Source of the DNA: Lophium mytilinum
Taxonomy: Eukaryota > Ascomycota > Dothideomycetes > Mytilinidiales > Mytilinidiaceae
Direction of reading: 5' to 3'
Length of the DNA stretch: 64,000 bases
Assembly (NCBI GenBank): GCA_010093605.1
Contig: MU004189.1
Span: forward strand, 503,834 to 567,833
Numbering within the stretch: position 1 is the stretch's first letter; each line of letters opens with the position of its first letter. The notes under the pieces were generated by a model, which was not told where the DNA came from, made no database searches, and was given only the letters and a program-made list of their open reading frames with translations. Below are positions 6,676 to 40,250 of this stretch, in pieces. A program made the position numbers and the translations under genes.

Positions 6676-6730
6676 GAGGTTGAGGGGGGCCTTGGGATGC
6701 GGAGAGGGTGGTCAAAGAGGCTATAGGATG

Positions 6731-7192
6731 GAGATGGGTATAGTACTACTTGGGCTCTCGTCTTGCGCTTCTGATACCGCTGTGAGGAGAACCCTGGGGG
6801 AGGGATGAGGGGGGGGTTCAAAAGGTGGGCTGGTTTAGGGGGTTGAGAACGTTACATTCCAAGGGTGCTATAAATGTAATGTGCTGGAGGATAATAAGAT
6901 ATTCAAGACCTGCTCAACCGCATGGTATTAGGCGTATGATTTAAGGAGGTGCAGTAAGAGGGAGATGGGAATAGTACTATTTGGGCTCTCGTTTTACGCT
7001 TCTGATACCGCTGTGAGGAGGACCCTGCGCAAGAGATGAGTGGGGGGTTAAAAGGTGGGCTGGTTTAGTGGGTTGAGAATGTTACATTCCAAGGGTGCTA
7101 TTAATGCAATGTTCTGGAGGACAATAAGATATTTTTGAACTGCTCAAACGCATGGTAGTAGGCGTGTGATCTAGGCGGTGCGGTAAGATGAT
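6731..7192. repeat. 231-bp direct duplication at the head of the 160-bp array
   Basis: Copy one starts at 6731 and copy two at 6962, both with GAGATGGG then ATAGTACTA. They match through the GTTACATTCCAAGGGTGCTA anchor (6851 and 7081) and on to GCATGGTA...TAGGCGT. Many differences are C/T or G/A transitions. Each copy equals one 160-bp unit plus about 70 extra bases. Confidence 0.8.
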
Positions 7193-8440
7193 TGCAAAAG
7201 ACGTGTGAGGTAATGACTGTCTGATAGATGAGGTCAAGAACGTTACATCATGATCATTTTGCAAATGGTACCTCCTGGAGGGTTGAGGATGCTTGGAACA
7301 TGGTCAAAATGGTTGTATGATGTGGCTGGTTCTGTTGGTGGTGAGATATGGTGGTCGAAATGGAGAAAACAGACCTGGTGCCGTTTTAGGACGTCAAGCA
7401 CTTAACATACTGTTTTATCTTGGAGCTATAGGTGCTGTAGCCCTCAAGACGTTAAGGACGTGTCCAGTACTAGTAGGGACAGCGGCTGATATAGGTTGTA
7501 GCGTAAAAGTGTGCCAACATTGCGTTTAAAATTCCGTGGTCTGATATCGAACGTCAAGAACGTTACATTAGGCGTCGTCCTCGGCCTATAGGTCCTGGAG
7601 CCCATCAAGACGTCAAGGACGTGTCAAGACCAGTAGGCAGAGCGGCTGATATAGGTTGTAACGCAAAAGTGTACCGCTATTAAGGTTAAAATTCCGTGGC
7701 CTGATATTGGACGTGAGGAACGTTACATTAGGCTTCGTCCTCGAGCTATACGTGCTGGAGCGTAATAAGATGTTTAGTCTGTCTTCAAAAGTAACACGGA
7801 AGGCCGCTGATTTGAGGAGTAACGCAAAACAGCGTTGAAAAAAGAACTGAAAGTTCGAGGCCTGTCTTAGCCTCCCGAAGCCTTTACATCAAGCATAGAC
7901 TTATTTCATCACCTCTAGAGGTTCTCCAAGGTCTTTGGCATGCATTCAGACCGGACCTATCACGCGTGTAATCTCGGAGGTGATGCAAAAGCGTGTTAGA
8001 AAGGACTGAAAAGTGCGTGTGTCCGATTCAGCTTGTTGAAATCTTTACATTCAAGTTTCAACCCTGGTAGTACGTTTAGAGGTTCGTCAAGGTCGTTAGC
8101 ATATATTCAGACTCGATCTACCATGCGTGCAATCTCGGAGGTCATGCAAAAGCGTGCTAGAAAGGATTGAAAAGTGCGTGTGTCCGATTCAGCTCGTTAA
8201 GATGTTTACATCCAAGTTTCAATGCACGTAGTACGTGTAGAGTATCTTCAATGTCTCAAACATGTGTTCAAAGGGAAGACGAAAGACAACTGATCTCATA
8301 TGTAGTGCAAAAGGGCATCTGAAATGAGCCCCAAAATAAACAACTAAATTCAGCTCCTCGAAACCTTAACATGGCAACCGCACCTTCCAACATACATACA
8401 TGATGTCCTTTGAGGCACTAAGCACGTATTCAAACACACG
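6800..8440. repeat. Degenerate 160-161 bp tandem array, about 10 units
   Basis: The anchor CGTTACAT (or CTTAACAT, CTTTACAT, GTTTACAT) recurs at about 6850, 7080, 7241, 7401, 7561, 7721, 7881, 8042, 8203 and 8364. From 7080 on the steps are 160-161 bp every time. Each unit also has a GTGCTGGAG/AATAAGA block, a GCTGATATAGG-like block and a GCAAAAG(C)GTG block. Units differ widely yet hardly vary in length. The period is not a multiple of three and frames are broken, so it is not coding. It fills the convergent gap between the EEP and RCO1-like genes. Confidence 0.85.
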
Positions 8441-8516
8441 GACAAGTTGGTCTACTTTTGATTCTCTATTACTAGTACAGTGCAGTATCATCCAGTTTCT
8501 GCTACTGGAAAACTTC

Positions 8517-8542
8517 GGTGTGAAAAACACCAATTTCACACC
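8517..8542. repeat. Perfect 9-bp inverted repeat
   Basis: GGTGTGAAA at 8517-8525 faces TTTCACACC at 8534-8542 with an 8-nt loop. Inside it, GGTGT/ACACC forms a second, smaller hairpin. It lies about 115 bp past the stop of the RCO1-like gene (which is on -), so it could be a 3' processing hairpin. That role is not shown. Confidence 0.6.
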
Positions 8543-8655
8543 CCAAATCGCCACCTTGGGCGCCATGCCCCCAGAATTGGGCCAATAGTTCATTCAAAAA
8601 GCAGCTAACTATGCTATGTTGAATCCATTCGCTATGCTATACAATAAGGAAAACT

Positions 8656-11600
8656 CTAAGAAGAACCCGCGCCATTCAGCTTGCGCGCGATCAGCTCCTG
8701 CAACTTCACCAGGAGCTCGCGCTCGGAAGCGCCGGCAGCCTGGTTACTAATAAGATCAATCACATCGGAAGGAGCCTCGGCCTAGTTGGAGATTCTGTTA
8801 GTATTGACAACATGCTGAAGACGAGGGCAGACTTACGATCAGATTGGCAACAAGAGACTCGACGTTCTCGCCAGTTAAACCAACATCAGTCTCTTTTTGT
8901 GCGAACTGGGCCAGGTTGATAGCGACTTGCTGCTCTACGATGGGTCGGGAGGAAATGCTGGTTAAGGCACCATTGGCGGTGATGGGGGCTTTTCCCTTGG
9001 CGCGCGCAAGGTTCTTGGAGGCAAGCATCGCCTTGTGGGCCTGCTCGTTCATGCGTCGGCGCTTGACGGAGCCAATGAAGTCGGCGATGATGACTTGTTT
9101 CGGGATTCTCTTGAGGACAGCGTCCTCTGGCCTGGGTTCCTTGTCGTCGTAGACCCAATCTTCTTCATCTTCCGATTCGTCTTCGTTGCTCATAACTTCG
9201 ATGATACCGTTGTTGCGGAGGCCACGTGGCAAGGCAACGTCTTGCGGAATCAACACCTTGGGGCGTCGAATACGGTGTCGCAGGACGATGTCTTCAGAGT
9301 CGAGGTCCGGGCTAGCCGCTCGCTTGCGCTTGAGAGTGCCGTTGTAGGTCGGCGTGCTCATCTCTGCAACACTCTTGAGGTCGTGATCTACGTGGAGCGG
9401 GCATTTCCAGGCGCGGCGGGTCATGCCTGATGCCGGGAACAACATGGGATTCATGGCAGCCGGTGGATCGAGGCAGTCCAAGTGCCACCACTTGTCGCAG
9501 AAATCGCACTTGATGATCTCGCGCTTGCCGGTTGACGACTGTGAGCATCCATGGCACAGGACGGCCTTGGAGTGCTCGATCAACTTGTACGTATCCGGTT
9601 TGGCATAGAAGCCCTTCTCTTTTGCGCTATTGCAGGTCAATGTCATGCTCAAAAAGCGCGTGGGGAAAACTTACAGTGCAATCTCACGTGCCGGCTGTTC
9701 TTCGTAACCACCCTCTGCGTTCGTCTTCACGCCCACAAAGTAATTGCGAACGTCGTCAGGTAATCCGAACCATTTCGAACCAGTTTCGGGAGCGGGTAAA
9801 GCGGACTCGAGCGCAGCTACCCATCGGTTCTTGGTTGGAGCCGATCGTGAGGCCTCTGCTGCGGCCAAAAGTCGTCGGCATTTGTGGCACACGAAATCAT
9901 CTGGTGCTTCTGCGCCTTCGGGAATGGGAGGCTCGGCGCAGGCAAAGTGATACCAATCCTCGCAATGGTCGCAGCCGATGATGAGGCCGCCGAGGCCACA
10001 TGAAGCGCAAACATCTTCGTCATTGACCGAAGCCTGGAAAACAATTAGTGGGACTGACAAACACTTTCGAGTGGGTGGAGATGAAAAGAGTGAGTCTGCA
10101 GGGCTCGTTCGAAGAATCATGATGGACAAAGGGGATGTGGTGGAGGAAGGATGAAAGCGAGGGAAGGACGAAAAACGTGTTGGGGTATTGGCCAAGTGGG
10201 TGCCACTCACATCGCTGTCATCCGCCCCGACCTGCGCACTCGATCCGCCAATCGCACGCGAACTGCTTGCGACAACTGCCTTCGCCTTGACGGGCCTGTA
10301 GTGTATGAAATGCATTAGCGAACTGCTCTGATTATGTTTTCGAGAATTTGGAGGCATAGGCGGGCAACGACGCTGCCAAGCGGGGAAGAAGGGTGGCAAA
10401 AGCCCGACGGTGAGACATAACGCGAAACTTCTGAACGAAAGGAAGGGAGGCTGAATAGAAGGAATGCTTACGAGAACTTGGTCTTTGCAGGGCCATTGTT
10501 GGTCTTGCGGCGCTTGGTCGCGTGTCCAGCGGCCGGAGTCGTAGGTCTCGTAACTGGCCTCGATGCGACAGCCGATCCAGCTCCTCCCGGTGAGGCAGCG
10601 TCTAGGAACGCGAAGTCCGGCGTGCCATGTGCGGGCGAGTTCAGGGTAGAGAAGGCGTGGTCGGCGTACGCGCCATTCTGCTGAGGCGTCGTAGCAATGG
10701 GAGCGGGCTGTGGGCCTTGCGAGTTGCCATTGCGTGACCGGCCGGAGCGTCGGGGAGGTGGTGGAGCTGCTGCTGATGATGATGCGGCTAATGGCTGTAG
10801 AACCTGGTTAAATTCTGTTAATACTCCGTTTGGAAAGTTGAGCGCGTCGTGTTGTGATCGAATAGCAGAAAACTCAGGATTGAAATCAGGGAATGTGCGG
10901 GCCATTTTCGATTTCTTTACCTGAATCTCGCGCTCTGCATCGTCGATACCAGCCTCATCCGCACTGCGCTTTCCGGTCATCGGTGCCGGTGTAGCAGTAG
11001 AGGACTTCGGTTTCTTCCCCTTGGGGTTGTTCTTGAGGATCAGCTTCTGCTTTGGGGCCTTCGGTGGAACGGCCACGTCCTCTTCCTTGACGGAGACGGC
11101 CTCTGGTGGCTCGCTCATGATTATGTCTTCGTTGACATCGCTGAGCTCGGAATCTGTCGCGTCAAGAGTGGCTTTTGCCTGTGCCTTGGGCGCTTTGCCT
11201 TTGCCCTTGGGCGATTTGGGTGTTTTCGGTGCTTTCGGTGCTTTCGCGGCGGGCTGCTTGGTTGCGGCGGGCGGCGGAGCAGCATCCTGCAGTGGAGCAG
11301 CGGCTTTGGCTTGTCTGCGTGTCGAGACCATTTCGGTGGACTTGGTAGTGCCGTTGACGGGGGTGAACTGGGCGGGTGGTGTTGTTGATCGAGGTGACGG
11401 AGCGAAAATGATGTTGTTGTTGTGGCTGGGAGAATGATTGGGAGAGAGGTGAGGAACGTTGGAGAGAGGATTATGTCCAGAGGTCGCTGCCAAATTCAGC
11501 TGCGCTGCTATTGTGTTTATTGAAGGCGTGGTGGAGCCAGCAACTATTGTTGTGATTGTGTCGGCGGGCCGGGCGGATGTCAGTGAAGAATTCCGTGTCT

Positions 11601-12468
11601 TGGCGTGCGAGACTGGAGAGTTTTGCAGAGAAGCCGTCAGCGTCCTCGCCCGCCGTTCCAAAGTCTTTGAGACCTTCTTCGCCTTCTTGATGTAATCGTG
11701 AAAATCAATGTGCTCCTGCGGCGTCGCTCGTTCATTCAGGATGGCATCCAGTAGCCGCGCGTAGGCCTGATTGTGGCAACTCTCGTCATATAAGCGGCGG
11801 ACTGCGTCGCCCACGAAGGGTCGGCCATCGTCCTTGGCTTTCTTCATAGCGGCGTTAACGGCCTTCAGCATGATCTGGTTCTGAGCAGGAGTGCGCGTGG
11901 TGGGCGTGGCCGTGCTGGGAGCAAGGACGGCGTCGCGATGCGGCGTGCTAGCCTTGAAACCGTTCTTCATCGCCGCCTTGCCAGACCGCGATGCGCTTCG
12001 AGCGCCGTTCGGAATGTATTCGTCATCCTCGTCTTCATCTTGCGGTTCTATTGATAGAGGGAGGATCGCGTCCTCCTCGGGCTGCTCCGACTCTGCTCGC
12101 TCAGGCTCTGCGGCCGGCGTCATCTCAGGAGTTGAGAAAGCTTCTTCCGCCGCCGACAGATTCCCGTTCTTGCCTAGCAGGGAGGGCTTCTGCATCTCCT
12201 GAACTCCTCTTAGCTTCGCCTTCAGCTTGGCGGACGGTAGTTGGCCGAGGGGCGCCATGTTTTCGAGGACTCCGTGTCGTGCGAAGCCGTGGTCTTCGAA
12301 GCTGGCGGTGGGGTTTTTTGGCAGGGGCTCGACCCAGTTGTCCAAAGATGCTTGTGCCTTCTCTTTCTTGAATACTAGTCCAGGTGCGGGTGAGGAGTTG
12401 GAATTGCGAAAGGGACTCGAGGTGCGGCTCGATTTCCTGATTGCAGGTGGGCGGATGGAAGAAGGCAT
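8656..12468 (-). CDS. RCO1: RCO1-like double-PHD-finger protein (Rpd3S histone deacetylase subunit)
   Basis: Exons 12468-10472, 10295-10211, 10033-9675, 9626-8837 and 8781-8656 give 1118 residues. Introns are 176, 177, 48 and 56 nt, all GT-AG. Rco1 anchors the Rpd3S deacetylase complex on methylated nucleosomes in transcribed genes (family knowledge). The first 665 residues are Ser/Pro/Ala-rich and low in complexity. PHD1 (about 697-746) has CASCGLGG, CDHCEDWYHFAC and CHKC. PHD2 (about 838-895) has CHGC, CDFCDKWWHLDCLDPP and CPLHVDH; this WHLDCLDPP...W.CP.H form is typical of Rco1. The last exon is a short helical tail (SERELLVKLQELIARKLNG). Alternative: another two-PHD regulator such as Cti6 relatives, less likely because of the PHD2 pattern. 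Confidence 0.85.
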
Positions 12469-19396: not shown

Positions 19397-19820
19397 ATAC
19401 AGTGGATGGGGTAGACGGCACGTCTACGTTGCGGCGGAGTAGATGAAAGGCGGAAAATGAGAGATTGAGAAGAGATGTCACTTGTAGAACACTTGTCGGT
19501 CCTGAAAAGCAATAAGTAGCGATTTGGGGCCACGGAAGGTTTGTAAATTTGTAATGTGCTTGATATCACGACGAGGTTGTCGGGGGACACTTAGAGCGTG
19601 AATTCACTTCGATTCTAGAATATAGAAACAATACCATAAATATAATCCCGAAGAGCTGGCATTTTGTAGGTTTTTGTGCATCTCTTCATAGTTGTACAGT
19701 GTCCATACATTCAGAGCGTTACATCTCGGCTTCCCTGGTAGGTGTATGCCCATAGATAACACACCACAAGTGGGGTTATATATACTCCACTCGCCCCACG
19801 CTACTTACAATGAACTCGTC
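19397..19820. other. Convergent intergenic, CorA to CIA84
   Basis: 424 bp between two stop codons; AT-rich near 19540-19690. No repeat array here, unlike four other convergent gaps. Confidence 0.6.
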
Positions 19821-22518: not shown

Positions 22519-23253
22519 ATGGCGCTATTCAGATCCTCAATTCGACCGGCAACCTCGCTGAGCCGACAATGCACAAGATCACTATCACATACCCGCCGTT
22601 GGCTTGCAGGACCGTCTGAAACTGAGAGCATAGCTGCAGGTATGCTCACCGCAATACTCCCTCCCTCAGTCATCCAGACCTCTAACACTTCACAGAAACC
22701 CTTCGAATAATGAGTGAATCTTCTTCAACCAAGTCGACCAGCTTTTCCCGAGCAAGGTCTACCCGCGCAGCTTTCACCCAAAAGGACGTCCAGGACGCCG
22801 AACTGGCAGCAAAACGCACCGATTACGAGCTGCAGCTCGCGCGGAAATTCAAGCCCGGAGATGTGTATGCCCCGCACGACTTGACGGGACAAGAGATGCA
22901 GAAGTGGAAGAAGTCGCGGAATGCGCCGAAGACAGATGCTATCGATGCGCTGGGGCTGAATCCGATTAACGAGTACAAGGTACGACTTTCCTTTCTGCGG
23001 AACATTCATACACCCACGGGTCTGTAGGGAGAAGATTTGGGCAGGGTTAATTCGATTGCTACAGAATTTCTCTATGATGTCCGAGTTCATGACCGAGATG
23101 GGACGGATAAAGTCTGCACAGGAGACGGGACTGCGGCCGGTGAATCAAAGGAGAATGGCTAAGGCTATAAGGAGGGCAATTGGAGTTGGCTTAATGCCGA
23201 GTGTCCACAAGCATCCAGAGCTGATGATAAAACAACGCAAATCGTACCGGTGA
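22519..23253 (+). CDS. MRPS18: Mitochondrial small-subunit ribosomal protein bS18m
   Basis: Exons 22519-22639, 22696-22979 and 23065-23253 give 197 residues. The C-terminal third is the S18 fold: NEYKNFSMMSEFMTEMGR, then TGLRPVNQRRMAKAIRRAIG, then LMPSVHKHPE. In the ribosome bS18 contacts 16S-type rRNA on the platform next to bS6. The N-terminus (MALFRSSIRPATSLSRQCTR) is a mitochondrial presequence. Removing the first intron (56 nt) joins AAE TLRIMSESSS; removing the second (85 nt) joins NEYK to NFSMM, which is unbroken in relatives. Confidence 0.9.
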
Positions 23254-24263
23254 TTGAATGGAAGCCGGCTGGTCGTATGGATTCGAGTGTAGGAATATTG
23301 GAAAGGCAAGGGAAGAGTGGTGTATTATACTTTTCTGAGATGGCTTGAATTTCCGGCCCATCACAAGAAGCGTTATGTGAAATACTCGAATGCTACAATT
23401 ACACAGGCATGCAAAATCAGAAAGTCTGTCGGTAAGGCTGTTGACATGCTGAACGGTGTTATTTAATCCTCGCTGTCGACATGGCTCCCGTTGGATATGT
23501 GGGGGCAATCTGCAACCTCCGACAATAACAAGTCAAAAACGAGTCCAAATCACACGGACTGGCTCCCATTCATACATCTTACCATTGCCAAAGTACCCCT
23601 ATTTCCACTACCCTATCTGAGGTGTCAAGCAATACACATCGTAAAACGACGGGAAATCTGGCAGTCCTCAATTGCTTATACTTGAATAAGCTAAATTCAG
23701 GGTGTCAAGTAATAATATGCCAAAAACGACGTGAAATCGCACCGACTGGCTCCCGTTCATATATCTCAACACACCGTAATCTCAGCGTTATTCCAAGTTC
23801 AGATTTGAAGGGTGCTGGACTTGACATGGAAGTGACGAGTGAAACTCCAGCTTTAACAGAACGTAAAAAGCTACTCGAGCTACATCAGGGCCTTCATGAA
23901 ATGAGTATGAAACTGATCTAAAGATGCCTGACTAGCTCCCATATGTAAGGAGCCCGAAAAGAATAGACCCGGGAATGCTTCAAAAAGGCCACTGGTTGAT
24001 TCTGCAAAGGGTAGACTTGATGAGCTGATAACGCTCGCATGTTACGTTTACTTATCTAGCAGGTACTGACGGCACCTCAGAACTCTCGGTCAGATTGAGG
24101 CATGGGATGGTTTTGGGGTATAGAGTCTTCGTACTAGGCCTTTGGGGAAGCCTTGCGCTCGAGAGGTGAGCGCGTAATATGGGTATCGTAGTTCCGAATA
24201 GCCTTAACACAAACAGCCGGCAGTAGCAAACACGCTTCAAACTCCGTAGTCTTCTCATATCAG
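23254..24263. repeat. Convergent intergenic with degenerate ~187-bp repeats
   Basis: ACTGGCTCCC followed by (A/G)TTCATA recurs at 23558 and 23745, and as ACTAGCTCCC at 23931 (steps 187 and 186). The upstream blocks CAAAAACGA...AAATC...CA and GTGTCAAG(C/T)AATA also recur. The third copy is much decayed. Flanks (23254-23530 and 23960-24263) show nothing recognisable. No gene is supported in this 1-kb gap between the bS18m and MYST stop codons. Confidence 0.55.
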
Positions 24264-25377
24264 TCACTCGTCGTCTCCTCCGTATTCGTCTTCCTCCATC
24301 TCCACAAACCCCTCTGCATCCACCGGCGGGTTCAGATCAACCTTATTCTCAGCCGCCCATGCCCTAACCTTGGCCTTGTTGATCACGTTTTCGGCTCCAC
24401 CCCGCTTCTTGTGATCCAGCACCTGCATGGCCTGCAACGTCGCGATGATGTCTTCCTGCACGATATACGTCTGATCCCTGATATCCGTGACGGTGAGTGT
24501 CTTCTTCTGCGGCGCGCTGAGCAGTGTGCGAGCGATTGTGTGAGACCAATAGGACTGGTAGCCACGCTTGCCGAGTTCAGAGAGTGCTGCAGTGATTCAA
24601 GGCGTCAATTCACTACTACGTCGGCAAGTGGAGGTGGGAGTTTATACGCACGCTTCTCAGGCCCTCCCAACCTACCCTCGCGCTTGCTGAGCTCGTAGCT
24701 CGCGCCCATTAGGATCTGGCCTAGGCCTTTCTGCTGCCAGGGTGGAAAAACCAAAATACACGCCAGGTTATTGTTGTCCCAGCTCATCTTCTCTTTACTG
24801 AAGAAGCCAACAACCTGTCCATTCATCGAGTTCGAGTGCCCAGGTATGGTCACAGGCACGGGCGGCGTAGGGTCGTGAGCGACGAGGAGGTAGTAGAGGA
24901 AGGTAGTGACGTCGTAGAAGACGGACTTGGTGTCTAGGAAGAGCTTCGCGAAGAGAGACAGGTTCTGGCAATAGAGCTTGTTTTCCTCACCGTCGATTTC
25001 GTGTAAGGAGTAGCCATCTTTGGTGTATATGACAGCTCCGGGGGGTGGGGTATCTTTGAAAGCACATACTTTCTGGGGAGGTCAGCTTAGACCAGGAAAA
25101 GTGAGATACGAGAGGAACTGTGGCATACCAGATGGCCAAGGAACTCATTGATGAGATCTTTTGAGTATTTGAAGCACCATTGGCATACATACAGCCTTTC
25201 TACCTCCCTCCCGACCAGCTCCTCGGGGTAGAAGGACGGGTACCACGGCTTGATGAGCAGCGAGCCGAGCACGGCGTTGTGGACGTTTGGATCCATGGAT
25301 GGTCGCGCCGTCTTGCTCTCTGGCTTGTTGATACCATTGGGGGTCGCGTCATGTTGAATAGGTGTTTCCAGTCCCAT
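24264..25377 (-). CDS. SAS2: MYST-family histone acetyltransferase, SAS2-like
   Basis: Exons 25377-25129, 25072-24652 and 24586-24264 give 330 residues. The MYST domain fills nearly the whole protein: WYPSFYPEELV, a C2HC finger (CQWC...HLKVC), ENKLYCQNLSLFAKLFLD, then GQVVGFFSKEKMSWDNNNLA. The catalytic core follows: CILVFPPWQQKGLGQ (active-site Cys and acetyl-CoA loop) and SYELSKREG, then GGPEKPLSELG (catalytic Glu), then YWSH. There is no chromodomain, so it is not ESA1; SAS2-type enzymes acetylate histone H4 Lys16. Introns are 56 and 65 nt; the second donor is GTGCGT and is required to form GPEKPLSEL. The tail is acidic. Confidence 0.9.
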
Positions 25378-25590
25378 TGCTCCTGCTTTTACATATTGGG
25401 TCGGAGTGAATTGGAGGGGAAGGAACGCCCGGCGCGGTTTCGCGGTGTCATTCGCTGCACGGACGTCGGTGCCAAGGCAGACATCGACGTCGTTTTCTCG
25501 AACCCAACACCTCCAGGGCTGTCTCTAATCTCTTTGCGCAGTTTGAAATTCTGTATTGGTGCGGTACCTAATTCAGCTCCCGTTCAGCTC
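25378..25590. promoter_or_regulatory. 213-bp divergent promoter, SAS2-like and MTF2-like genes
   Basis: The start codons at 25377 (-) and 25591 (+) leave 213 bp for both promoters. The + frame is open through it but without family similarity, so the later ATG is used. Confidence 0.6.
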
Positions 25591-26895
25591 ATGTCTCTGC
25601 CTACGACTACATTTCGAACCCTGTCCTCGCCACGCCTCCAACGACGGCTGATCGCGAAACCTACGACATTTCTCCCGTTTCTTTATCAGACGTCAACGAT
25701 CCAACAATGCCGTACCATCCATGAAGCGCCCAATACTCCCAAGTCTACCAGTAGCCCTTTTTCCTGGCTCAATGAAGGACAAGACGCTGGCGAGGGCCTT
25801 CCTCCAACGATCGAGGAGTTCGCTTTCCACCAGCAGCGCCCAAGTACCATTACGGAGACCGAACGGAAAGCTTTTTTGAAGCTGTATAATAACCTGGGAC
25901 AAAATGTACCGAGCAATACAAACCCGACCCACGATGACGCAGCTACGAGCACAGAAGAATCTGAAAACTCTGAAAAGCCTTTGGAAACTATCTTCCAAAA
26001 TGTTATTCAGAACATGTCAGCCAAGGATAAAATAATCCTCGCTCGAGCACAGCGTGCCAAATCCTTGAGTTTATCAAAAGTTGTGAGATCGACGGCACCG
26101 GGCTTCTATGAACGGATAATTGATCTTAACCAAGATGACGCGAAACGACTCGAAGAGCTCCAGAAGAGTCGGGAAGAGCAGTACACGAGAATCACCGAGA
26201 TGATGTCAGCCACGAAGACCGATACGGAGCTTTGGGATATCTTGGATAGGGAAGTGTTCACTTTGATCCGGAATCTTGGGTTGGATGGGATATCCGCAAA
26301 AAAAAGCAAGAGCAAGAGGAAGCCCAGGACGAAGGGGGAGAAAACTGCAGAAACGAGCTCTGCCTCCACTCCCTTAACAGACCCAGAGTCAAAGGATGTA
26401 CGACCAGATCCTTCTAGTCTTTCCATCATTGGTCCTAACTTTTCCTCTCTCCTCGTCACTGCCGCCCGTCAGCTGTGCCTGGAATTCCCAAACTCCTCCC
26501 TCCCTCTCAATCTCATCCCGACCATCAAATCCCTCGGTCGTGGTGCATATGTACTCGGCGCTAGTACGCTCCTCTACAACGAGCTCATTAGGATGGCTTG
26601 GATAAAACACGCTGACTTGCAGTATGTGGAGGAGCTGATTCAGGATATGGACAACGGGGGTGTAGATTTCGACGAAAACACGCTCGGGATGCTCGACGAG
26701 ATGGATTTAGAGGGCCAGCAGGCGCGACATCAGAAGTATGGACAACTCGTCGCGGCTGTCTGGAGCTTGGACCGCTTCGTAGGCGGATGGGCGAAGCTTG
26801 AGAGGTGGAGGGTCATAATTAAGGAACGATTGCGGTCGGATGCGCTCAGGAATGCGAACTCAGGGAGGCTTGCTCGTTCCATGCCAACATATTAG
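25591..26895 (+). CDS. MTF2-like mitochondrial protein (RNA metabolism)
   Basis: One exon, 434 residues, from the ATG at 25591. The N-terminus (FRTLSSPRLQRRLIAKPTTF) is a presequence rich in Arg and Ser with no acidic residue. The centre has a helical segment with AKDKIILARAQRAKS and ATKTDTELWDILDREVFTLI. The C-terminal half is all-alpha (LPLNLIPTIKSLGRGAYVLG, LYNELIRMAW, WSLDRFVGGWAKLERWR). This resembles the C-terminal domain of yeast Mtf2/Nam1, which supports processing and translation of mitochondrial mRNAs. The assignment is from recollected pattern and moderate; the mitochondrial location is firmer. It shares a divergent promoter with the MYST gene. Confidence 0.68.
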   Translation: MSLPTTTFRTLSSPRLQRRLIAKPTTFLPFLYQTSTIQQCRTIHEAPNTPKSTSSPFSWLNEGQDAGEGLPPTIEEFAFHQQRPSTITETERKAFLKLYNNLGQNVPSNTNPTHDDAATSTEESENSEKPLETIFQNVIQNMSAKDKIILARAQRAKSLSLSKVVRSTAPGFYERIIDLNQDDAKRLEELQKSREEQYTRITEMMSATKTDTELWDILDREVFTLIRNLGLDGISAKKSKSKRKPRTKGEKTAETSSASTPLTDPESKDVRPDPSSLSIIGPNFSSLLVTAARQLCLEFPNSSLPLNLIPTIKSLGRGAYVLGASTLLYNELIRMAWIKHADLQYVEELIQDMDNGGVDFDENTLGMLDEMDLEGQQARHQKYGQLVAAVWSLDRFVGGWAKLERWRVIIKERLRSDALRNANSGRLARSMPTY

Positions 26896-27407: not shown

Positions 27408-28950
27408 GCCCCTTTCTAGCCTCAACCCCCCCGACAGCACCCCTTTTCCCCGAGTCCCTCAGGTAATTGCTTGTCAACCCGTCACCATGGAGGCCCCTTG
27501 GTGTTGTGAATCACCTCCTGTTTTCGGCTTCATGTTGCGTATCCTGGTCGTTGAGTCGTGCGCGAAAGAGTGGTTCTGAACTCGAAAACCCGGACAGCGG
27601 CTCAACACCAACACCGGGCCTTAGTCAGCTCGCCCGCCCGGCGGCCAACTCACGACGTTTCCAGCTTCGAGCACCTTTTCGCGGATAGCTCAACAACCAC
27701 ACCTCCTATCCAGAATCCGACACCGGGACGTGATTCGCACGGCCGAGTAGTATTTTTAAGGATCTTGTGCACAAGGTGAGTTGTCCATTTCATCATGTTA
27801 GAGGGGGGTATACAGGACTCTACACTTTTCTCGTCCTTCCGGCTTGCCAAGAGTTGCCAGAAGAGGAGATTCGCAACTTCATTCTGCCGTCGCCGAGAGC
27901 AAACATTTCCACGGATCTCGAGCCCGCCGCACCTTTTTGGTAGATAGCTCCACAACCACACCTCCTATCTCGAATCCGACACCGGGACGTGACTCGCACG
28001 GTCGAGTAGTATTTTTAAGGATCTTGTGCAGAAGGTAATTTATCCATTTCACTAAGTTAGAGGGGGTTATACAGGACTCCACACCTTTCTCGCCCTTCTG
28101 GCGTGCCAAGAGTTGCCAGAAGAGGAGATTCGCAACTTCGTTCTGCCGTCGCCGAGAGCAGACAATTTCCACGGTTTCGAGCCCGCCGCACCCTTTCAGC
28201 AGATAGCTCCACAACCACACCCCGGATCACAGATTTAACACCAGGAGGTGATTCGCACGGCTTGCTAGTTATTTTGAGAGGCTTTTAAGGGGTCCGTTAC
28301 CTCAACTCATTGACATGGAGGGGGGTGTACAGGACTCCACGCTTTTTGAGCTCTTCGCAGCTGCCAAGAGCTGCCTAAAGAGGTACCTAGGTCGCGATTT
28401 CGTTCTGCCGCTGCCGACAGATAGATTTTCGCGGTTTCAAGCCTCCTACACCCTTTTTTAACGTGTACCTCCTCAACCACGCCTCGCACCATAGACCTAA
28501 CAACATGGTGGCATTTACCTAGCCAAAAAGTATTTTTAAGGGTGTTTCAGAGAAGCGATTGCTCCATTTCGTTGCGTTAGAGGAGGTCCTACAGCGCTCC
28601 ACACCTCTCAAGCCCTCTCCAGCCGCCAAGAGTACCCAAAAACGAAGAAGAACCAGCGGCGGTAATACTAAAGCGCGCGCAAAGAGAATTAGCTCGGAGT
28701 TTTTTCGAGCCTTCGCACGCTTTTCTACGAATAAAGCCGAACAGCAAACGTCTCGCATCACGAATCTTGACACCAGGACGTGTTTTCACCTAGCTGAGAA
28801 GTATATTCGTGGAAGCTGCAATATCCGTGAAAATCGCCAGCTCGTTATGTTAGAGGGGGGGGTGGCGCGATGTTCCACACGTTTCTTGTTCCTCCCAGCT
28901 GCCAGGAGTTCTCACGGAAGGACTTCTATTACTTAGGAGGACACTCTTCG
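27408..28950. repeat. 259-bp tandem array, 4-5 clear units and a decayed leading unit
   Basis: AGCTC(C)ACAACCAC lies at 27687, 27946 and 28205 (exact steps of 259). A related ACCTCCTCAACCAC lies at 28467, and a decayed copy at about 28735. Other shared blocks per unit: CGACACCGGGACGTGA, AGTATTTTTAAGG, TTAGAGGGGG, ATACAGGACTC, TGCCAAGAGTTGCCAGAAG, TTCTGCCGTCGCCGAGAGCA. The first two full units are nearly identical; later ones diverge. 259 is not a multiple of three, so the repeated short peptides seen in different frames are not real proteins. It lies between two convergent genes. Confidence 0.88.
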
Positions 28951-29763: not shown

Positions 29764-32088
29764 TTAGTACGGCCGTCCGCCATACGCCCCCGGCGCGCCT
29801 AGGTCGATATCCGGTAGCCGCGGAGCGCGGCCGCCAGGCGGCGAGACGCTACGTCCGTGGCTCTCGCTCCGGGTGTGGCTGATGCTGCGGCCGTGGCTCG
29901 TGCTGCGGCCGCCGAAGCTCGCCGAGTCTGTCAGCAGCGGATTCTGGTCTTCTGTCTGGCCGAACGCGCGGCGGCCGCTGTAGCCAGTGTGTTGCTCGTT
30001 CAGAGGCACCTGTTCGTAGGGGCCGAGCGGATTGGCGCCGACCATGGGGCCGCGGGTGTCGGTGCTCTTGTAGCCGGTGGGCTCCATGAGGAGGGAGTTG
30101 CGAGCGTCGAGTGGGGTGAGGGTGTCGAGGTCGCGGTTGAGTTTTTCTAGGCGGTTGTTAGAGGATGTGGATTTTGGGAGATTGAGAGGGATGGACTTAC
30201 CGGCTTCCTTCCTCTTCCTGCGGTGAGGGTTGTCGCGGCAGCAGGTGATGATGGCGTTGACGGCGATCAAGATAGCGAGGAGTGCGGTCAGGACGGATTG
30301 CATGACCACGAGGACGAGACCAGTGATTGTCTTAGTTGTCTGCGCCACGCCGAGCTCCTCGACGAAGACTAAGATGCAGACTACAGAGAGCACGCGAACG
30401 ACTTGGATAGTAATGTTGATCCAGTTGCCAGACTTCAAAGAGTAGGGGCGGGACCAGAGGAGGACGATGAAGAGCAGAGACTCGATGATCAGCTGGCCTG
30501 CTGTCTGGACGAGTCCGTGGCCATCAGCACCGGCGATGACACAGCCCTTAGCGAACATGTAGATGATGGCTGGTACGAAGATCCACCAGTAGCTCTTCTT
30601 GTAGTTTTCATAGAACAGGCTGTATTTCCTCCAGATGTCCTTGTCGTCGTAAAGCGCGGCGGCGTCTCCCTCAATCTTGCTGAACTTCCGGGCAGTATAC
30701 CAAATCTTCCAAGTGAAGAATCCGAGAATGGCAGTGAAAATTGCTAGGGTAACACCTGCGAGAAGTTTGGCGGCCCAGGAATCGCCATTCGTAAACTGGT
30801 ATACACAGTAAAGCACCCAGACACCGTAGAGAAGGAGGATCAAATTGGTGATGGTTTTTGCGAGGAGCCACCAATAACGCTTCCGGAAGCTCGTAAGGCT
30901 CTTGGGAAATGTTCCGAACAGTGCCCATGTTTCGAGGATGACCTTGAAAAGGAGGATACCGACGGTAATGGCTGCAATGACAATGGCAAAGATTAGAAGA
31001 ACGGTCATGAAGGTGTTAGCTTGAGGAATGGTGAGTTCCTCAACGTAGGCCTGAATTCCGGAAACAGTATGCATGAGCTTGTTGTCTGATGTGCTGTTGC
31101 CGTCTGTGCCATTGACCTGGGTGTTGAGAGAGTCGCGGGCAAAGAGAACGAAACTCTCCAGTCCACGCTTGGTAAGATTCTTGTCGGAAGAAGGGCTAAC
31201 AAGAGTCACATTCTTCAGGTAAGCGACACTGTCTTCGGTCAGGTTACCGCCAGTCGATTTGCGAAAGTTGTCGATGGACGTCTGCATTCCCTCCCAGTAT
31301 ATCAAGCCACCGCTAAAGGCAAAGTTCTTGGTGAAACTCTTGTAGAGGCTGGGATATTGGACAGTCATCATGCCGTTCAGGGCCATGGACTGGAACCATC
31401 CAATGACTTCGCCAAAGGTTGGGCTTGATGTGGCCGCACCGGAATGTCCAGCTCCAAGGGCGGAAACGCCAGACAGGACGAGTGCAGCACCAGCGATACC
31501 GGCAGCAACGTATGATACCGCTGGAACGTTGAAGGATTTTCCGTTGCTCACGGTCGATTGTATACAAGCCAGTGACTTTCCGTCTTCCAGTGATTTCAGT
31601 TGCAGGGTTGCTTGGCCATCCAGGTCGGGAACACTGAAGGCGATAGATGGGATCTGGGAGATGAAGTTATCGGGTATTGTCTGGGACCCTTTTGCGGCGA
31701 AGTCGCCCTCAGGCACTGATCGCGTGTTAGCTGATTGCCACATACATTTACACAGGTGCAAGTGCTTACCTGGACACAATTGCTGAACATAGTTGTCCTT
31801 GTCGCAAGGGTTGAAGTCCTTCTGGTAGACTTGTTTGCCGTATGCCGTCACCACCATGGTTGCTGTGACGTTCTGCACCTTTGCACTGTATGCAGAAATG
31901 TCGAAGTCGATCTTCTTCGTCGCCCGATTGAACTCCATGTCCAGTCTTTTCACTTGGATCTCGGCATCCGACTGGCAGGTGCTGAAGCCATTCGTCTTGA
32001 GGATATCGCCGGCCAGCGCTCCTATGGGGAGGCTGGCGAGTACTAGGAAAGGCGCAAGCATGTTGGAATATGTACTATGAACTCTCAT
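29764..32088 (-). CDS. FLC-family TRP-like membrane protein (flavin carrier type)
   Basis: Exons 32088-31770, 31715-30201 and 30146-29764 give 738 residues. A signal peptide (MLAPFLVLASLPIGALAG; the ATG at 32061 is an alternative start nine codons in) leads into an ML-like lumenal domain with paired Cys (TCQSD, NPCDKD, LCP, LACIQ). A multi-helix TRP-like domain follows: about nine membrane segments from about 215 to 600, for example TFMTVLLIFAIVIAAI and LLFIVLLWSRPYS. The cytosolic tail has DTLTPLDARNSLLM and a Ser/Arg/His-rich repeat (GRSTSHGRSISHTRSESHGR). Yeast Flc1-3 act in FAD transport into the ER, Ca2+ homeostasis and wall integrity. Both introns are 54 nt, so retention keeps the frame; removing them gives QLCPVPEGDF and RKRKEAEKLNRDLD, which fit the family. 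Confidence 0.88.
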   Translation of the reverse strand: MRVHSTYSNMLAPFLVLASLPIGALAGDILKTNGFSTCQSDAEIQVKRLDMEFNRATKKIDFDISAYSAKVQNVTATMVVTAYGKQVYQKDFNPCDKDNYVQQLCPGKHLHLCKCMWQSANTRSVPEGDFAAKGSQTIPDNFISQIPSIAFSVPDLDGQATLQLKSLEDGKSLACIQSTVSNGKSFNVPAVSYVAAGIAGAALVLSGVSALGAGHSGAATSSPTFGEVIGWFQSMALNGMMTVQYPSLYKSFTKNFAFSGGLIYWEGMQTSIDNFRKSTGGNLTEDSVAYLKNVTLVSPSSDKNLTKRGLESFVLFARDSLNTQVNGTDGNSTSDNKLMHTVSGIQAYVEELTIPQANTFMTVLLIFAIVIAAITVGILLFKVILETWALFGTFPKSLTSFRKRYWWLLAKTITNLILLLYGVWVLYCVYQFTNGDSWAAKLLAGVTLAIFTAILGFFTWKIWYTARKFSKIEGDAAALYDDKDIWRKYSLFYENYKKSYWWIFVPAIIYMFAKGCVIAGADGHGLVQTAGQLIIESLLFIVLLWSRPYSLKSGNWINITIQVVRVLSVVCILVFVEELGVAQTTKTITGLVLVVMQSVLTALLAILIAVNAIITCCRDNPHRRKRKEAGKSIPLNLPKSTSSNNRLEKLNRDLDTLTPLDARNSLLMEPTGYKSTDTRGPMVGANPLGPYEQVPLNEQHTGYSGRRAFGQTEDQNPLLTDSASFGGRSTSHGRSISHTRSESHGRSVSPPGGRAPRLPDIDLGAPGAYGGRPY

Positions 32089-34437: not shown

Positions 34438-37048
34438 ATGGGTGCTATGGGACGTTTCGCACGTAGAAAGAGGAAGACCATGGCCAGAATCCGGGCCCTT
34501 CTTCGAGCGAGAGCCTCCGCCAACGCTCCGCCCCAAGGAGGATTGGATGGAGAGTCAGAGCCGCCTGCCACAGCGCCTCAACTTCCGCGACCTAGCCCGC
34601 GTCCCAAGCTGCCGGGCAAACTACATGCTAGCAAGTCAACACCTGGTTTGTCAAGACAGATCAGCCACAAGCTGTCGGCTTTCTTTCAGAGCCCTACTGT
34701 CGTGTACCGTCCGACATCACGTCTACAACCATCAACAGTGGCTTCAGTTGTGGAAGAGGTTCACACCCAATCAAACTCTTCTAGTCTTCTTTTGAGCATT
34801 CAGCCACCCGACCCACCATTGAGCACCCCCGTCGATCAGAACGATCCTTCCCCATCATCCTATCAGTCAAGCGTCAACAGCAGCAATCTCCTGAAAAGCG
34901 TCCAGTCAACAGCACCAACCTCACTATTCTCTTCGGGTGCTCTTAGGTCTGCCGAAACGATATACATCAAAAGCCGCAACCAAGATGGAGACGGAAACGG
35001 GCCTCCAGGGATCCCCGAATACGTCATTGACCAAGTGATACCCCAATCCCGTTGGTGTGCCTTTCCTAGGCAAGACGCACCTCGTGTCGTTCAACCCTCT
35101 ATCCGTACAGTCGAGAACGCTGCTGCCGCCAAAATCTTCCTCGAAAATCACTTTAATGGGCTGTTTAACCAGAGGATAAACCCACGTTCCCTCAGGCGCC
35201 GAAATCTCGAACGAACGCTCTTCAATTTGACTGTTCCAAACGAGGAGAGGAACCAAAAGCGACAAGAATGGTACCGCGGCGAAAGTGAGCACCTTCGCCA
35301 GACACGAGTGCTGAAGTCTAGGACTATGGCGAGAAAGAATATGAAGGGATTACACATCACAGGTTACGAGATCGTCCGGATATTGGGCAAAGGTAGCTTT
35401 GGTGTTGTGAGGCTAGTCCGCGAAAGAGGAGACAGTACCAGCGACCACCAACGTATTGAGACGCTGGACGGTCAAATGGCCCGAGCTATGCCCAATGATA
35501 CGTTGGTCAAAGATTTTACGCGAACCTGCAAACAGGTGTACGCCATGAAAGTCATCAGGAAGTCTGATATGCTTCGAAACAGTCAGGAAGGGCACCTACG
35601 CGCTGAACGAGATTTCCTCGTAGCCTCGGAGAACTCGCGCTGGGTTGTGCCGCTCATTGCCAGCTTCCAGGATAACAATAACCTCTACCTCGTTATGGAG
35701 TACATGGTCGGCGGGGACTTTTTGGGTCTTTTACTTAGAGAAGACGTTTTGGACGAGGGTATTGCACAGTGGTATATTGCCGAGATGATATGTTGCGTAG
35801 AGGAGGCACACCGCATGAATTGGATCCATCGCGATGTCAAGCCTGACAACTTTCTCATAACGGCATCTGGTCACCTAAAAATATCTGATTTCGGACTGGC
35901 GTTCGACGGACATTGGGCGCACAATCAAAGCTACTACAACGAACAACGATACTCTCTCATGCGAGATCTCAATATCAATGTTAGAGGTGATTCTCAGGAT
36001 TGCGAAGAGGAGATGGAAAAGAACAACGCACAGCGGGTGGCAGACATCATCAACGGCAACCCTCTAGACTGCAAAAGATCCACTGGGAAGCCGCAATCAG
36101 AGATCAACGGACCTGTTTTGGATTGGTTGAATCGGACGCAGAGGCGTAGCTTTGCAAAGAGTGTTGTCGGCACTAGCCAGTACATGGCACCTGAAGTCAT
36201 CCGAGGAGAGACGTATGACGGGCGGTGCGATTGGTGGAGCATTGGCATCATTCTCTACGAGGTACGTGTCGACAACGCTTTACATGCTACGATTCTAACA
36301 AGATCCTTCAGTGTCTATACGGCTGCACCCCCTTCTTCTCCGAAAACAGAACCGCAACAAAAGAACGAATTCTCGTAAGCTTCGCACTATTCATCTGAAT
36401 CAACCACTCTAACCCCTTCCCCAGCGCCACAAACAAGTCCTCAAATTCCCCTCCGACTTCCGCTACGCGCGCCCCTCCACCGACCGCGTCCCCCTACGCC
36501 CCGTCTCCCGCTCCGGCATCGATCTCATCTCGCGCCTCCTCGACGAAAAAGAGGTCCGCCTCTCCGCACGCCGCTACCGCGACAACGACTTCGCCATCGC
36601 CCGCCGCACCCTCTCCTCCCGCTACCTACGCAACTCGCACCTCCACTCGCCCGGTCACTTCGTCTTCGCCAACGACGCCGAAGACATCAAGGTCCACCCC
36701 TTCTTCCGCGGCATCGACTGGCAGAATATGCACCGCGCGCAGCCGCCGTTCGTGCCGCGGGTTAAGGCAGATCAACCGATCACGAAGTATTTTGACGACG
36801 AGGCGGACATTATGAGCGAGAGTGATCATTTGGATTCAAGTAGTTATGCGAGTGGGGCGGTGGAGAAGGAGGAGGGAGATGGGAAGATGGGGGGCAAGGG
36901 GAGGCGCAGGCGGAAGGAGAAAAAGAGGCCAAGGGATAAGATACTTAGGGATCCGGAGGTCGGGAGGGCGGTGTTGGAGATTAGGAAGAAGGGCGCGTTT
37001 GTGGGGTATACGTATCGGAGGCCGAGGTTTGCAATGCCGGAGTGTTGA
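34438..37048 (+). CDS. NDR-type AGC Ser/Thr protein kinase, non-COT1/non-DBF2 lineage
   Basis: Exons 34438-36261, 36312-36374 (63 nt) and 36425-37048 give 836 residues. Order: basic Ser/Pro-rich N-terminus (1-215), an NTR-like helix where MOB would bind (about 222-300), then the kinase domain. It shows GKGSFGVV (Gly loop), YAMKVI (Lys), HRDVKPDN, DFGLAF, an NDR-type long insert of about 90 residues, the activation loop AKSVVGTSQYMAPEV with its Ser, and DWWSIGIILYECLYG. The C-terminal hydrophobic motif VGYTYRRPRF holds the Thr that an upstream kinase would phosphorylate. The protein stops seven residues later. NDR kinases with MOB control polarity and septation. The GTSQYMAPE loop differs from the GTPDYIAPE of COT1/CBK1, so this is a distinct paralogue. 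Composition flips from C-rich to G-rich in the last exon. Confidence 0.88.
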
Positions 37049-37919
37049 GATGATGGTTCCTGTGGGAGAGAAGGTGATGGATGAGAGGAGAGGGCTGTCG
37101 GTGATGCTCTTGCTGTCTTTCTTTTGTGTGGAGTGTTATTCTTAGTTTCCAGGCTTGCTTTGGGTCTGTAGTCAAAATCCCTTTGATGTTCGAGCTACTT
37201 GAATGTGGTGCTACGTGGGTTGTCTTTTGACTTACACTCGCTGCTGCTCGGGGCACCTCGACATGGCATGTGTACCCGGACCTGATGTTAAGCTCCTAAG
37301 CCTAAGGTTCAGACGAGTTGGTGAGGTTCTTGATACGAGGCGGATCCCAGGCCCATCTATGCGACTCGCCTCCATTACACCTCGATCCTGACTCCGAGTC
37401 CCATCCCTTGAAAAACTCTCATATTGTACGAAGTCATCCTCAGCCTCATGATCCATCCCCTACAGACGTCTACTACTCATTAAAACTCGCACTCCTGTCA
37501 GCACGCCTTAGCAAATCACCACCTAGATCAGCGTCCAGAGCAAACGAGAGCCACTTATGTTGATCACACCCAGGGCCTCTTAGAGCAGAGGAGAGGTGGG
37601 AGTAGCGCATTCGATAAGTATACCTGACCACTAATCTCATAACGGGAAGTAGACCTTTGGCGAATCGTTCAAGACTCTCTCCTCAAATCAATAGTCCTAA
37701 CCTTCACGTCTCATGTAGAGTTGGAAAAGCGTATGGGGATGGATACCTGTGACAGTGACTGAGGAGTCCGCACAGGTTATCGTAATCGCGTTGTGGAACA
37801 ACAAAGTCGAAGAGTGGAGGGACTCATCTTCACTGAGATGAGAAGAGCTTCGTCTCCACCACGATTAGAAGAAGCTCGTTTATCTCTGATGCGATGAGAT
37901 ATAGACCACCTCCTATGTT
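37049..37919. other. 3' flank of the NDR kinase
   Basis: No gene recognised. Possibly the decayed edge of the array that follows. Confidence 0.5.
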
Positions 37920-40250
37920 ATTTGATACTCGTCATCACCACATCAATTGCTGAAGCCGCACCACCACCACGCCCATGGGACACAAGACACAGTTATGACA
38001 ACCAACCGATCGAGTGGTGTTGTTGTTCCTTTGACCCCCCCTCTCCCACTCCACGTGCGAAGTATTTATATGCGATTTTGAAGACCCCACCTCCTTTTCT
38101 CCCCCCCCATAGCTCCGCGGTCATGCTTTTTTTGCACTCCATCCACCATGAGACTGTAGAGTGTTGCATTCGATCCACCGCCCCATTACGTCGTAATGTT
38201 TTCCATATCTAATCTTCAGCTATCGCATATTGTAGTAGTACCAGTTCTTTTTGACTGACCTCCCCTGCCTCCCCACATTAGGAGCTTGCTTGCGAATTTT
38301 CGATATTCCACTACCATGAGCATCGAATATACTCTGATCGATCCCGCCACGTTCAGTTGGGATCTGGTGGATGTTTGATCCCCATCAGTTGTTAGTGTAA
38401 GATCTTTTGATCCGCCTCCCTTGGCTTTCCAAACGCATCATTTCGCTATTGAGTTTTCGAGACTCCATCAACATGCGCCTTTGGAATGGTCTGTTTGATC
38501 CACCGGCCCATTTTGGCGTGAAGTTTCGCGTTTCTGATCCCCAGACACCACCCATAAGCGATTACCCGAGGAGCTGTTGACCGACCTCCCCTCCACTCCA
38601 CATGCATCACTCCGACTGTCAAGTTTTCGATACTCCACCAGCATACCGCTGTTGACGGGTTTTGTTCGGCCACTGCTCCATTGTCCCGTGATGTAGTGAG
38701 TCTCTGATCCCCAGCCACCACCCATTTTCAGCAGCGCTAAAATTCTTTTGATAGACCTACCCTCCTTCTCCACATATCACATTTCGCTGTCAAGTTTTCG
38801 AGACTTCAACAGCGTGCCGCCGTCGAAGTGCTTTGTCTGATCCACCTCCACATATTGACGTAGTGCTGAAGTTTCGTTTCTGATTCCCAGCCACCACCCA
38901 TCGACTCATGGCAGAGAGCTTTTGACGGACGTCCCCGCCTCTCCACATGTAGGGTATCGAGTTCGTAGTATTCAATCCACCACCCTATTCCTGCTTGACC
39001 ATCTGGTTTCTGATCCCCAACCACCACCACATGAGGGGTTTGCGTCGTGTCTTTCTACCCGCCTCTCCCCCTTCTCCCATGTAGCGGGGGCATTGGGCCT
39101 ATTTCACAAGTCCAGCACCATGTATGGCTTGGTCTCCGATTCTGAACTACTGCCCCATGAGAGAGCCTTTTCTCGATTCTTGATCCCTAGACACAACCCC
39201 TTTAGATGCCATGTCTTACGATGTTTATGACCCGCCCCTCCCCTTCTCCACATGACTTGAAGCATCGGGCGCATTTTGCAAGCCCAGCACCATAGAGGGC
39301 CTGGTCTTCGATTTTGAAGCACCAGTCCATGCCGTTGTTCCTTCCAGGTTCTGAAACCACCACATATTGACGTGTGCTTCGAACTTTTCGATTCACCTCG
39401 TCCCCTTTCTCCTCGTGCATCGAAACATCGGGCGAATTTTACAACCCCAACACCATCAGACCAATGATGATCGTTTTTTAACCACCAGCCCGTAGCAGAC
39501 TGCTGGTGTAGGTTTTTGATGCACAAACACCACACCATGAGATCTCTCATTCGAAGATTTTGATCCTCCCCTCCCCCTTTCACATGGGCTGGACCGTGTG
39601 GTTGTTTTTGTAAGCCCAGCACCATTCGAAGCACTAAATCTGCTCTTTTGAACCACCAGCCCCATGAATAGAGTGTGTCCAAGTTTTGAATACCCAGGCA
39701 CCCACCCCATGGAGTCTGTTTTGGATCTCGTTTTGATCCACCACTCTCCCTTCTCCCATTCTTCATAGTGATCGAGCGGATTTTACAAGCCCAGCACCCA
39801 TCAAAATAATACTGACGCGATGTTTTTGAACCACCAGCCCGTAACAGGCTGATGTGTAGGGTTTTGATCCACAAATACCACCCCATGAGACTCCTCCCGA
39901 AATTCCTGTTCTAATCCACCACCTCCCTCCCCACATTCCTATGTATGTTCGGAAGTTTTTGGGAGCCCACCACCATTGCTCCACGGCTGTTTCAATTCCG
40001 ATCCTCCGCCCCATCGACCATCCCATCTCGCATTTTTGATCGATGCTTTCGATCCCACCCCTCCCCTCCCACATATTGTGTTTTGTGCACCAGTTTTGCA
40101 AGCCCAGCACCATGGGGCTAAGGATGGTGAATTGTCGATCCACCGGCCCATGCCAGTAGGTGATTTGTTTTTTCGATCCCCAAACACCCACCCCATGAGA
40201 TTGTGATAGTGCCGAATTTTTGATCCACACTTCTCTCTCCCCTCCCTTCC
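37920..40250. repeat. Degenerate ~172-bp array built of ~43-bp sub-blocks
   Basis: A block like AGCCCAGCACCAT, or CTCCA(C)CA(G)CAT in the earlier units, recurs at about 38135, 38302, 38461, 38630, 38802, 38973, 39109, 39281, 39443, 39613, 39788, 39964 and 40101. Steps are mostly 160-176, two near 137. Each unit has four sub-blocks, each opening with a T run: TTTTGATCC...CTCCCCTTCTCCCAT; TTTTGCAAGCCCAGCACCAT; TTTTGAACCACCAGCCCAT; TTTTGATCC.CAAACACCACCCCATGAGA. These motifs are kept while the spacers between them are not. The + strand is pyrimidine-rich. A decayed unit may start near 37950. The longest open frame through it (39104-39886, -) encodes Trp/Gly-rich nonsense and is not accepted. Confidence 0.85.

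Follow-up and report, generated by a model that had tools for sequence, protein, structure and literature searches.

Between the convergent genes of a 64,000-bp stretch of the genome of the ascomycete Lophium mytilinum (contig MU004189.1; hereafter the window, G000:C9:503834-567833; the genome comprises 43.2 Mb on 24 contigs) lie four repeat regions with periods of about 160/230, 187, 259 and 172 bp, in which two different things are probably mixed: three satellite-like arrays and, in the 172-bp array, what would be the body of an RNA polymerase II (Pol II) transcription unit. The latter most likely represents a promoter-driven, probably non-coding unit of an undescribed family with about 15 loci, and the 160/230-, 187- and 259-bp arrays are most likely short satellite-like tandem repeats tolerated in the gaps. 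The original prediction had treated all four as nucleosome-scale arrays of apparently unrelated sequence that may have a role at convergent gene ends or may merely be tolerated there.

The 172-bp array is built of modules that all lie in one orientation. A position weight matrix trained on the array detects 48 sites, on one strand throughout, and 38 of the 45 intervals between modules measure 37-53 bp, with the remainder at 77-107 bp; self-BLAST within 38428-39890 returns offsets of 162-173 and 341-344 bp at 70-79% identity. The ~172-bp period reported previously is retained as a higher-order arrangement and not as a simple unit. On the minus strand the array is preceded by CACGTG-N26-GGTATAA, an E-box and a TATA motif found in the order and phase of a Pol II promoter. 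When 1491 bp of the array were compared with the genome only the array itself was returned, so that the family is recognisable by its motifs only.

Searches with those motifs demonstrated that the coupling of promoter and modules recurs genome-wide and depends on orientation. The pair CACGTG-N22..52-GGTATAA occurs 103 times (11 and 14 in controls) and is extended to CACGTG-N22..52-GGTATAA-N62..92-GATCAA in 16 rows representing 15 loci, with 1 and 0 in reversed controls; for even base use, about 0.8 occurrences of GATCAA would be expected over the 31 positions after 103 promoters. Inversion of the module in the three-part pattern reduces the count to 0 rows in the genome. Similarly, GGTATAA-N62..92-GGATCAAAA was found in eight rows (controls 0 and 0), seven of which also have the E-box, and the 15-mer TTTTGATCCACCACC has three genomic occurrences, at loci L036, L037 and L038 and none of them in the window, with none for its reversed control. 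Among the 100 listed of the 103 promoter matches, five of which are a second E-box for a TATA motif already counted, start-to-start distances cluster at 31-34 bp (47), 40-45 bp (24) and 51-54 bp (12), roughly one helical turn apart. In the same listed rows, neighbouring promoters within 2.5 kb face inwards in seven pairs, apart in one and are tandem in seven. Tandem runs of CACGTG-GGTATAA, 352-654 bp apart, include four at C19:1025179-1026525 and three at C15:472768-474105.

Gaps and genes were sampled from two regions totalling 314 kb of the 43 Mb, one of 200 kb on contig C1 and one of 114 kb on C9 that takes in the window, with genes predicted by a home-made hidden-Markov (HMM) gene finder. 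Within these samples GGTATAA has a density of 0.083 per kb, both strands together, and of 119 predicted genes, 3 have GGTATAA or TATAAA[AG] in the 300 bp upstream and 3 in the 300 bp downstream. Relaxed E-box/TATA matches number eight (0 to 4 in ten shuffles), six of them in three convergent gaps and none in divergent gaps. Three loci possess both promoter and modules, and all three are in convergent gaps; since such gaps account for roughly a third of the intergenic sequence sampled, the chance of three out of three is near 0.04, and that of two out of two, leaving aside the discovery case, near 0.11. In the convergent gap at C1:650 kb (149812-153690 of the block) there are four E-box/TATA matches, two per strand and inward-facing, and a second C1 convergent gap (190066-191670) has an E-box and TATA motif on the minus strand; inspection by eye of the latter also detected a plus-strand CACGTG followed by CATAAAA, outside the accepted pattern. 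Long arrays of the window's modules are carried by loci L036 and L037 (strand counts 14 vs 1 and 11 vs 2, threshold 8), and few modules by L038. The start-to-start distance from CACGTG to GGTATAA is 32, 32 and 45 bp at the window, L036 and L037, respectively. L038 is positioned between convergent thiamine pyrophosphate (TPP) enzyme and guanylate kinase genes, and at L036, beside a histone-fold gene, and L037 the single known side is a 3′ end.

The second conserved property of the family is the distance that separates its modules. At three module-rich loci read in the sense direction, 40 CAAAA motifs have an ATGG downstream within 60 nt, and for 24 of them the nearest one lies 17-22 nt away (11 at 19 nt, 7 at 20 nt); elsewhere in the sample the proportion is 24 of 166, and 300 shuffles gave a mean of 1.8 and a maximum of 8. 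The C1:650 kb gap contains five pairs at exactly 19 nt, one at 20 and one at 1, and no CAAAA/ATGG pair at any other distance between 0 and 44 nt on either strand; the second C1 gap has plus-strand pairs at 19 and 18 nt. The spacers themselves are mutually unrelated (mean identity 0.27 for same-length pairs among 40 units), and the conserved half-unit, from ATGG to the end of CAAAA, varies from 13 to 58 nt. A near-rigid gap that is free in sequence suggests one machine that touches both CAAAA and ATGG, and since motifs and spacing are all that different loci have in common, selection may be what keeps the modules.

Several observations weigh against this interpretation. Part of the likeness between loci arises by choice, because the module was defined on the window and L036, L037 and L038 were picked by a module pattern; the C1:650 kb locus stands outside the count of 40 pairs, yet its sequence had been inspected before the gap was measured. 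Selection of the 40 spacer units used a regular expression in which the gap is set to 18-21 nt, and the shuffle nulls ignore repeat history. Single CAAAA-N18..20-ATGG pairs are present at eight places without a seen promoter (three convergent, three divergent, one tandem and one genic; for these labels a 261-aa prediction at 39104-39886, excluded from the gap statistics, was retained). L038 has GGTATAA with no CACGTG nearby and few modules, and two of the eight relaxed E-box/TATA matches are in tandem gaps. The promoter itself is not special, because CACGTG and TATA are ordinary fungal promoter elements. The RNA is predicted to fold weakly (z -0.7 to -2.7 relative to 30 base shuffles).

A protein-coding role for the 172-bp family was considered and rejected, the longest sense frames having p=0.07 in the window, 0.19 in L036 and 0.94 in L037 in a frame-length test that leaves room for very short peptides. 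An open frame of ~260-261 aa at 39104-39886 (minus strand) inside the array was called coding by the gene finder; its length lies within that of G-rich-strand shuffles (p=0.07). An Rfam identity was likewise not obtained, with no family reaching its gathering score and two sub-threshold matches both situated left of the 172-bp array, and a tRNA identity of the arrays was rejected after a tRNA check.

It is proposed that the E-box/TATA promoter at 40294-40333 would read leftwards into the array between two convergent genes, and that the product would be a G-rich RNA of ATGG...GATCAAAA modules, probably non-coding. In such a unit the near-constant gap of unconstrained sequence, peaking at 19-20 nt, would separate each CAAAA from the next ATGG, and the conserved spacing would be expected to mark binding sites, in DNA or RNA, of one protein or complex spanning both motifs. 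Some of the ~15 loci are tandem or inward-facing, and inward-facing promoters would give overlapping transcripts. For the 172-bp unit, transcription, the polymerase involved, the lack of coding and the action of selection are all suggested by sequence features. The satellite-like arrays, for their part, would persist where no promoter is broken, i.e. in gene-end gaps. The features of the four gaps are listed in Table 1.

Table 1. Repeat regions, inferred promoter and flanking genes of the four convergent gaps (window positions); flanking stop codons according to the HMM gene finder are at 6675/8656, 23027/24264, 26895/29764 and 37048/41197.
Feature	Position	Strand	Remarks
Gene left of gap 1, endonuclease/exonuclease/phosphatase	5761..6675	+	
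Two 230/231-bp units	6724..7188	+	87% identical; starts 49 bp past the stop codon of the gene to the left
About six units, 160-161-bp spacing	7391..8420	+	About 69-84% identical
Gene right of gap 1, PHD fingers	8656..10357	-	RCO1 in the original prediction; reaches 12468 in one of the two gene-finder predictions
Gene left of gap 2	22519..23027	+	bS18m in the original prediction; no Pfam match for 22710-23027
Two diverged copies 187 bp apart, dispersed repeat	23515..23812	+	84 rows genome-wide including self
Gene right of gap 2, MOZ/SAS acetyltransferase	24264..25296	-	
Gene left of gap 3, Mtf2 family	25351..26895	+	
259-bp units	27671..28950	+	Chiefly the first ~186 bp of the unit recurs, dispersed, 15 rows including self
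Gene right of gap 3, TRP channel with ML-like domain	29764..32061	-	FLC in the original prediction
Gene left of gap 4, protein kinase	34480..37048	+	
172-bp modular array	37919..40240	-	G-rich ATGG...GATCAAAA modules in sense reading, the next ATGG typically 18-22 nt past CAAAA; putative body of a transcription unit
Inferred promoter reading into the array	40294..40333	-	CACGTG 40328-40333; GGTATAA (TTATACC on + strand, 40295-40301); 32 bp start to start
Gene right of gap 4, three-exon 149-aa prediction	41197..41792	-	87 aa in the original prediction

The gene content includes the Mtf2 and MOZ/SAS families, the TRP channel with ML-like domain and SNF5, and predicted introns are short (median 56 bp); together with a RIP-like AT-rich island described below, these features point to a filamentous ascomycete. 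The divergent MOZ/SAS and Mtf2 genes have predicted start codons only 54 bp apart (25297-25350). All four repeat regions score above every shuffled gap (314, 57, 497 and 112 vs a shuffled maximum of 37). The HMM finder yields the same seven convergent gaps that had been described, four of them with repeats; the two short duplications noted elsewhere are also present, one of 84 bp at 42638-42803 in a tandem gap and one of 38 bp at 1436-1562.

The internal structure of the other three regions is more varied than had been stated. The array given a single period of ~160 bp is indeed repetitive but is compound, consisting of 230-bp units followed by 161-bp units, with direct repeats at 6724-7188 (231 bp, 87%), 7426-7761 (160 bp, 84%) and 7916-8255 (161 bp, 84%); the last interval of the 161-bp array is 174 bp when measured on the second box of the unit. 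This family has just five rows genome-wide (here as in Table 1, such counts include the window's own match). A 281-bp segment of the array (8110-8390) has a 98% identical copy at C17:843111-843391, apparently a recent duplication. At 187 bp a repeat exists, although not as an array but merely as two diverged copies; it is itself weak, with similarity over 56 bp at 80% (E 1e-6) in the self-BLAST of 23524-23766. Copies of this family elsewhere are often tandem and spaced about 107 bp, as judged from those loci among the 84 rows that have more than one match, and its longest listed relative is C9:1608505-1608816, 80% identical over 312 bp of window 23632-23942. In the 259-bp array, self-BLAST of 27671-28641 gives offsets of 258 and 517 bp at 78% and 68%. 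Copies of the 259-bp family elsewhere, L024 aside, were placed as follows: L023 lies downstream of a triosephosphate isomerase gene and L028 between convergent genes of which the right-hand one encodes a subtilase, whereas L026/L029, a single locus, precedes an RpiB gene and L027 precedes a predicted gene. The longest frames in the 160/230- and 259-bp arrays, where frames were checked, fall inside the shuffle range, and the units follow one another head to tail without coding, as in satellite-like repeats.

The four repeat families had been described as unrelated, and this is borne out by nhmmer searches, in which profiles of three window families and of a further family from the C1 block gave no significant match between window arrays; the 172-bp array was included as a target, without a profile of its own. 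Self-BLAST gave no row linking one of the four regions to another. Descent of the window families from a common source was rejected, the best cross match (the 160-bp family against the C1-block family, opposite strand) reaching 11.7 bits, with up to 14.3 in 20 shuffled sets. The C1-block family, which is not in the window, occupies a convergent gap in the C1 block and forms arrays at L006:2200-3850, L039:480-3501 and L040, the last on the 5′ side of a gene. Its core, GTCTGAAGTCCTC...GATGTCAA, yields 35 exact matches to GTCTGAAGTCCTC vs 3 for the reversed control, and 25 DNA rows. A ~54-bp sub-period behind the 107-bp and 161-bp spacings was excluded by the lack of any 53-54 signal in those arrays. 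Repeat-induced point mutation (RIP) was also rejected as the cause of divergence, nine arrays having GC 0.44-0.52, TpA/ApT 0.46-1.09 and (CpA+TpG)/(ApC+GpT) 0.97-1.40; transition/transversion ratios between units, mostly 0.7-2.3 and up to 3.0, also count against RIP. For contrast, an AT-rich island within a predicted convergent gap (L019:3100-6700; C1:673100-676700), which resembles a RIP-mutated transposon, has values of 0.27, 1.60 and 0.22.

Outside the window, convergent position is not supported as a rule for repeats. Self-similarity was scored for 110 of 116 gaps, those shorter than 150 bp being omitted, in a tally that left out predicted genes of <100 aa. Within the window, 4/7 convergent and 1/13 other gaps contain repeats (Fisher p=0.03); outside it, at a score >50, the counts are 2/26 convergent, 0/24 divergent and 3/40 tandem (p=0.45), and at >37 they are 2/26, 1/24 and 4/40 (p=0.66), so this small sample gives no support to the general enrichment that the original prediction implied. 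In both samples together, divergent gaps with repeats amount to 0/29 at >50 and 1/29 at >37, and a scarcity of repeats in divergent gaps is suggestive only. Nor is there support for the view that position rather than sequence is conserved, given that the 187- and 259-bp families have dispersed relatives and the 172-bp family is recognisable genome-wide by motifs. Only in the 172-bp family is the location between convergent genes seen repeatedly.

These counts, together with the repeats in tandem gaps, are consistent with the less likely possibility that all four arrays are neutral products of replication slippage and unequal exchange in promoter-free gaps, merely tolerated when convergent. The periods are heterogeneous, and both the 259-bp family and a non-window family have copies on the 5′ sides of genes. 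Unit comparisons, from which pairs of <60% identity or of unlike length were omitted, bear on this reading in both directions. With a soft gap penalty there are 0.05-0.38 gaps per substitution (0.05-0.21 in the C1-block family, 0.32 in the 161-bp array), so that a strict length constraint is not established; with a hard penalty and length-matched pairs the values are 0.02-0.03 indels per substitution (~0.02 in the C1-block family, 0.03 in the 161-bp array), which speaks against neutrality, although the matching itself favours few indels. In the three C1-block arrays, of which L039 by itself contains 18 boxes, neighbouring boxes are 107-109 or 160-162 bp apart in 26 of 30 intervals despite ~19-40% divergence between units. 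Neutral expansion leaves unexplained both the coupling of promoter to modules and the 19-nt gap with unrelated content.

Alternatively, the arrays could be internal repeats of non-autonomous mobile elements, Helentron-like or of another class, that survive in convergent gaps, an origin considered unlikely. Copies are dispersed over many contigs and both strands, in many rows of the 259-bp family the homologous stretch has similar boundaries (about 27672 and 27861), and an inverted pair is present at C19:1132116/1132386. Against such an origin, termini, target-site duplications and flanking homology did not come to light, in data that were not searched systematically for them, and the 1491-bp query from the 172-bp array found nothing but itself.

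A more elaborate version of the promoter-driven unit, to which only a low probability is assigned, would be an unrecognised family of non-coding genes in convergent gaps, often as inward-facing pairs, in which unique ~19-nt spacers between conserved G-rich half-units, in RNA or DNA, act as interchangeable guides or as a source of small RNAs, or in which the rigid gap is the footprint of a dedicated binding protein. Literature searches for these motifs or such arrays in fungi found no such family described in titles and abstract openings, and 26 spacers of 15-25 nt had no 13-nt match in the 314 kb minus the array. CRISPR-type arrays combine conserved repeats with unrelated spacers of near-constant length. 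The 172-bp family resembles them by analogy only, in its conserved half-units and near-constant spacers of unrelated sequence, and differs from them in that its half-units are degenerate and of variable length.

The least probable explanation, namely the nucleosome phasing, arrest of read-through or cohesin loading at convergent 3′ ends that the original prediction suggested for the arrays, gains from the 160-162-bp register shared by two families without detectable kinship, from the convergent position of all four window arrays and from the 12 of 15 assignable sides of related copies outside the window that face a 3′ end (several of the genes being predictions only), but no test in this analysis supports any of the three functions, the excess in convergent gaps lacks significance beyond the window, and periods of 97, 107-108, 131, 187 and 259 bp match no single nucleosome repeat, the term nucleosome-scale being loose for a genome in which 84, 161, 172, 230, 236 and 250 bp also occur.

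It is customary to regard the convergent gaps of compact fungal genomes as free of promoters. If the promoter-driven unit proposed for the 172-bp array is real, annotation misses a motif-defined gene class in these gaps, and the presence of convergent or double-stranded RNA at gene ends can be tested directly; the near-fixed 19-nt gap with unrelated content represents a sharp constraint and would indicate a specific binding or processing machine. In the promoters of filamentous fungi, the preferred positions relative to the start site are about -70 for CACGTG and about -45 for TATA (PMC4046813), and the two motifs and their order are those of the window; unlike ordinary fungal promoters, those examined here lie within convergent gaps, and what follows them is GATCAAAA modules and no recognisable gene. 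At the disiRNA (dicer-independent small interfering RNA) loci of Neurospora, convergent transcription triggers DNA methylation (PMC3764098). The setting here is gene-rich as well, and inward-facing promoters could likewise yield convergent non-coding output; the loci differ in that 'tandem repeat' occurs 0 times in the main text of that paper, and in that those described here are known from sequence alone. Finally, short tandem arrays of many families interspersed with genes have been reported as Cg_HINE in oyster (PMC7492417), TCAST1 in beetle (PMC5844308) and 1.688 in Drosophila (PMC7642928), and the arrays of the window resemble these euchromatic satellites; they are distinguished from them by a compact fungal genome, by the fact that no carrier element was found and by the coupling of one family to a promoter.

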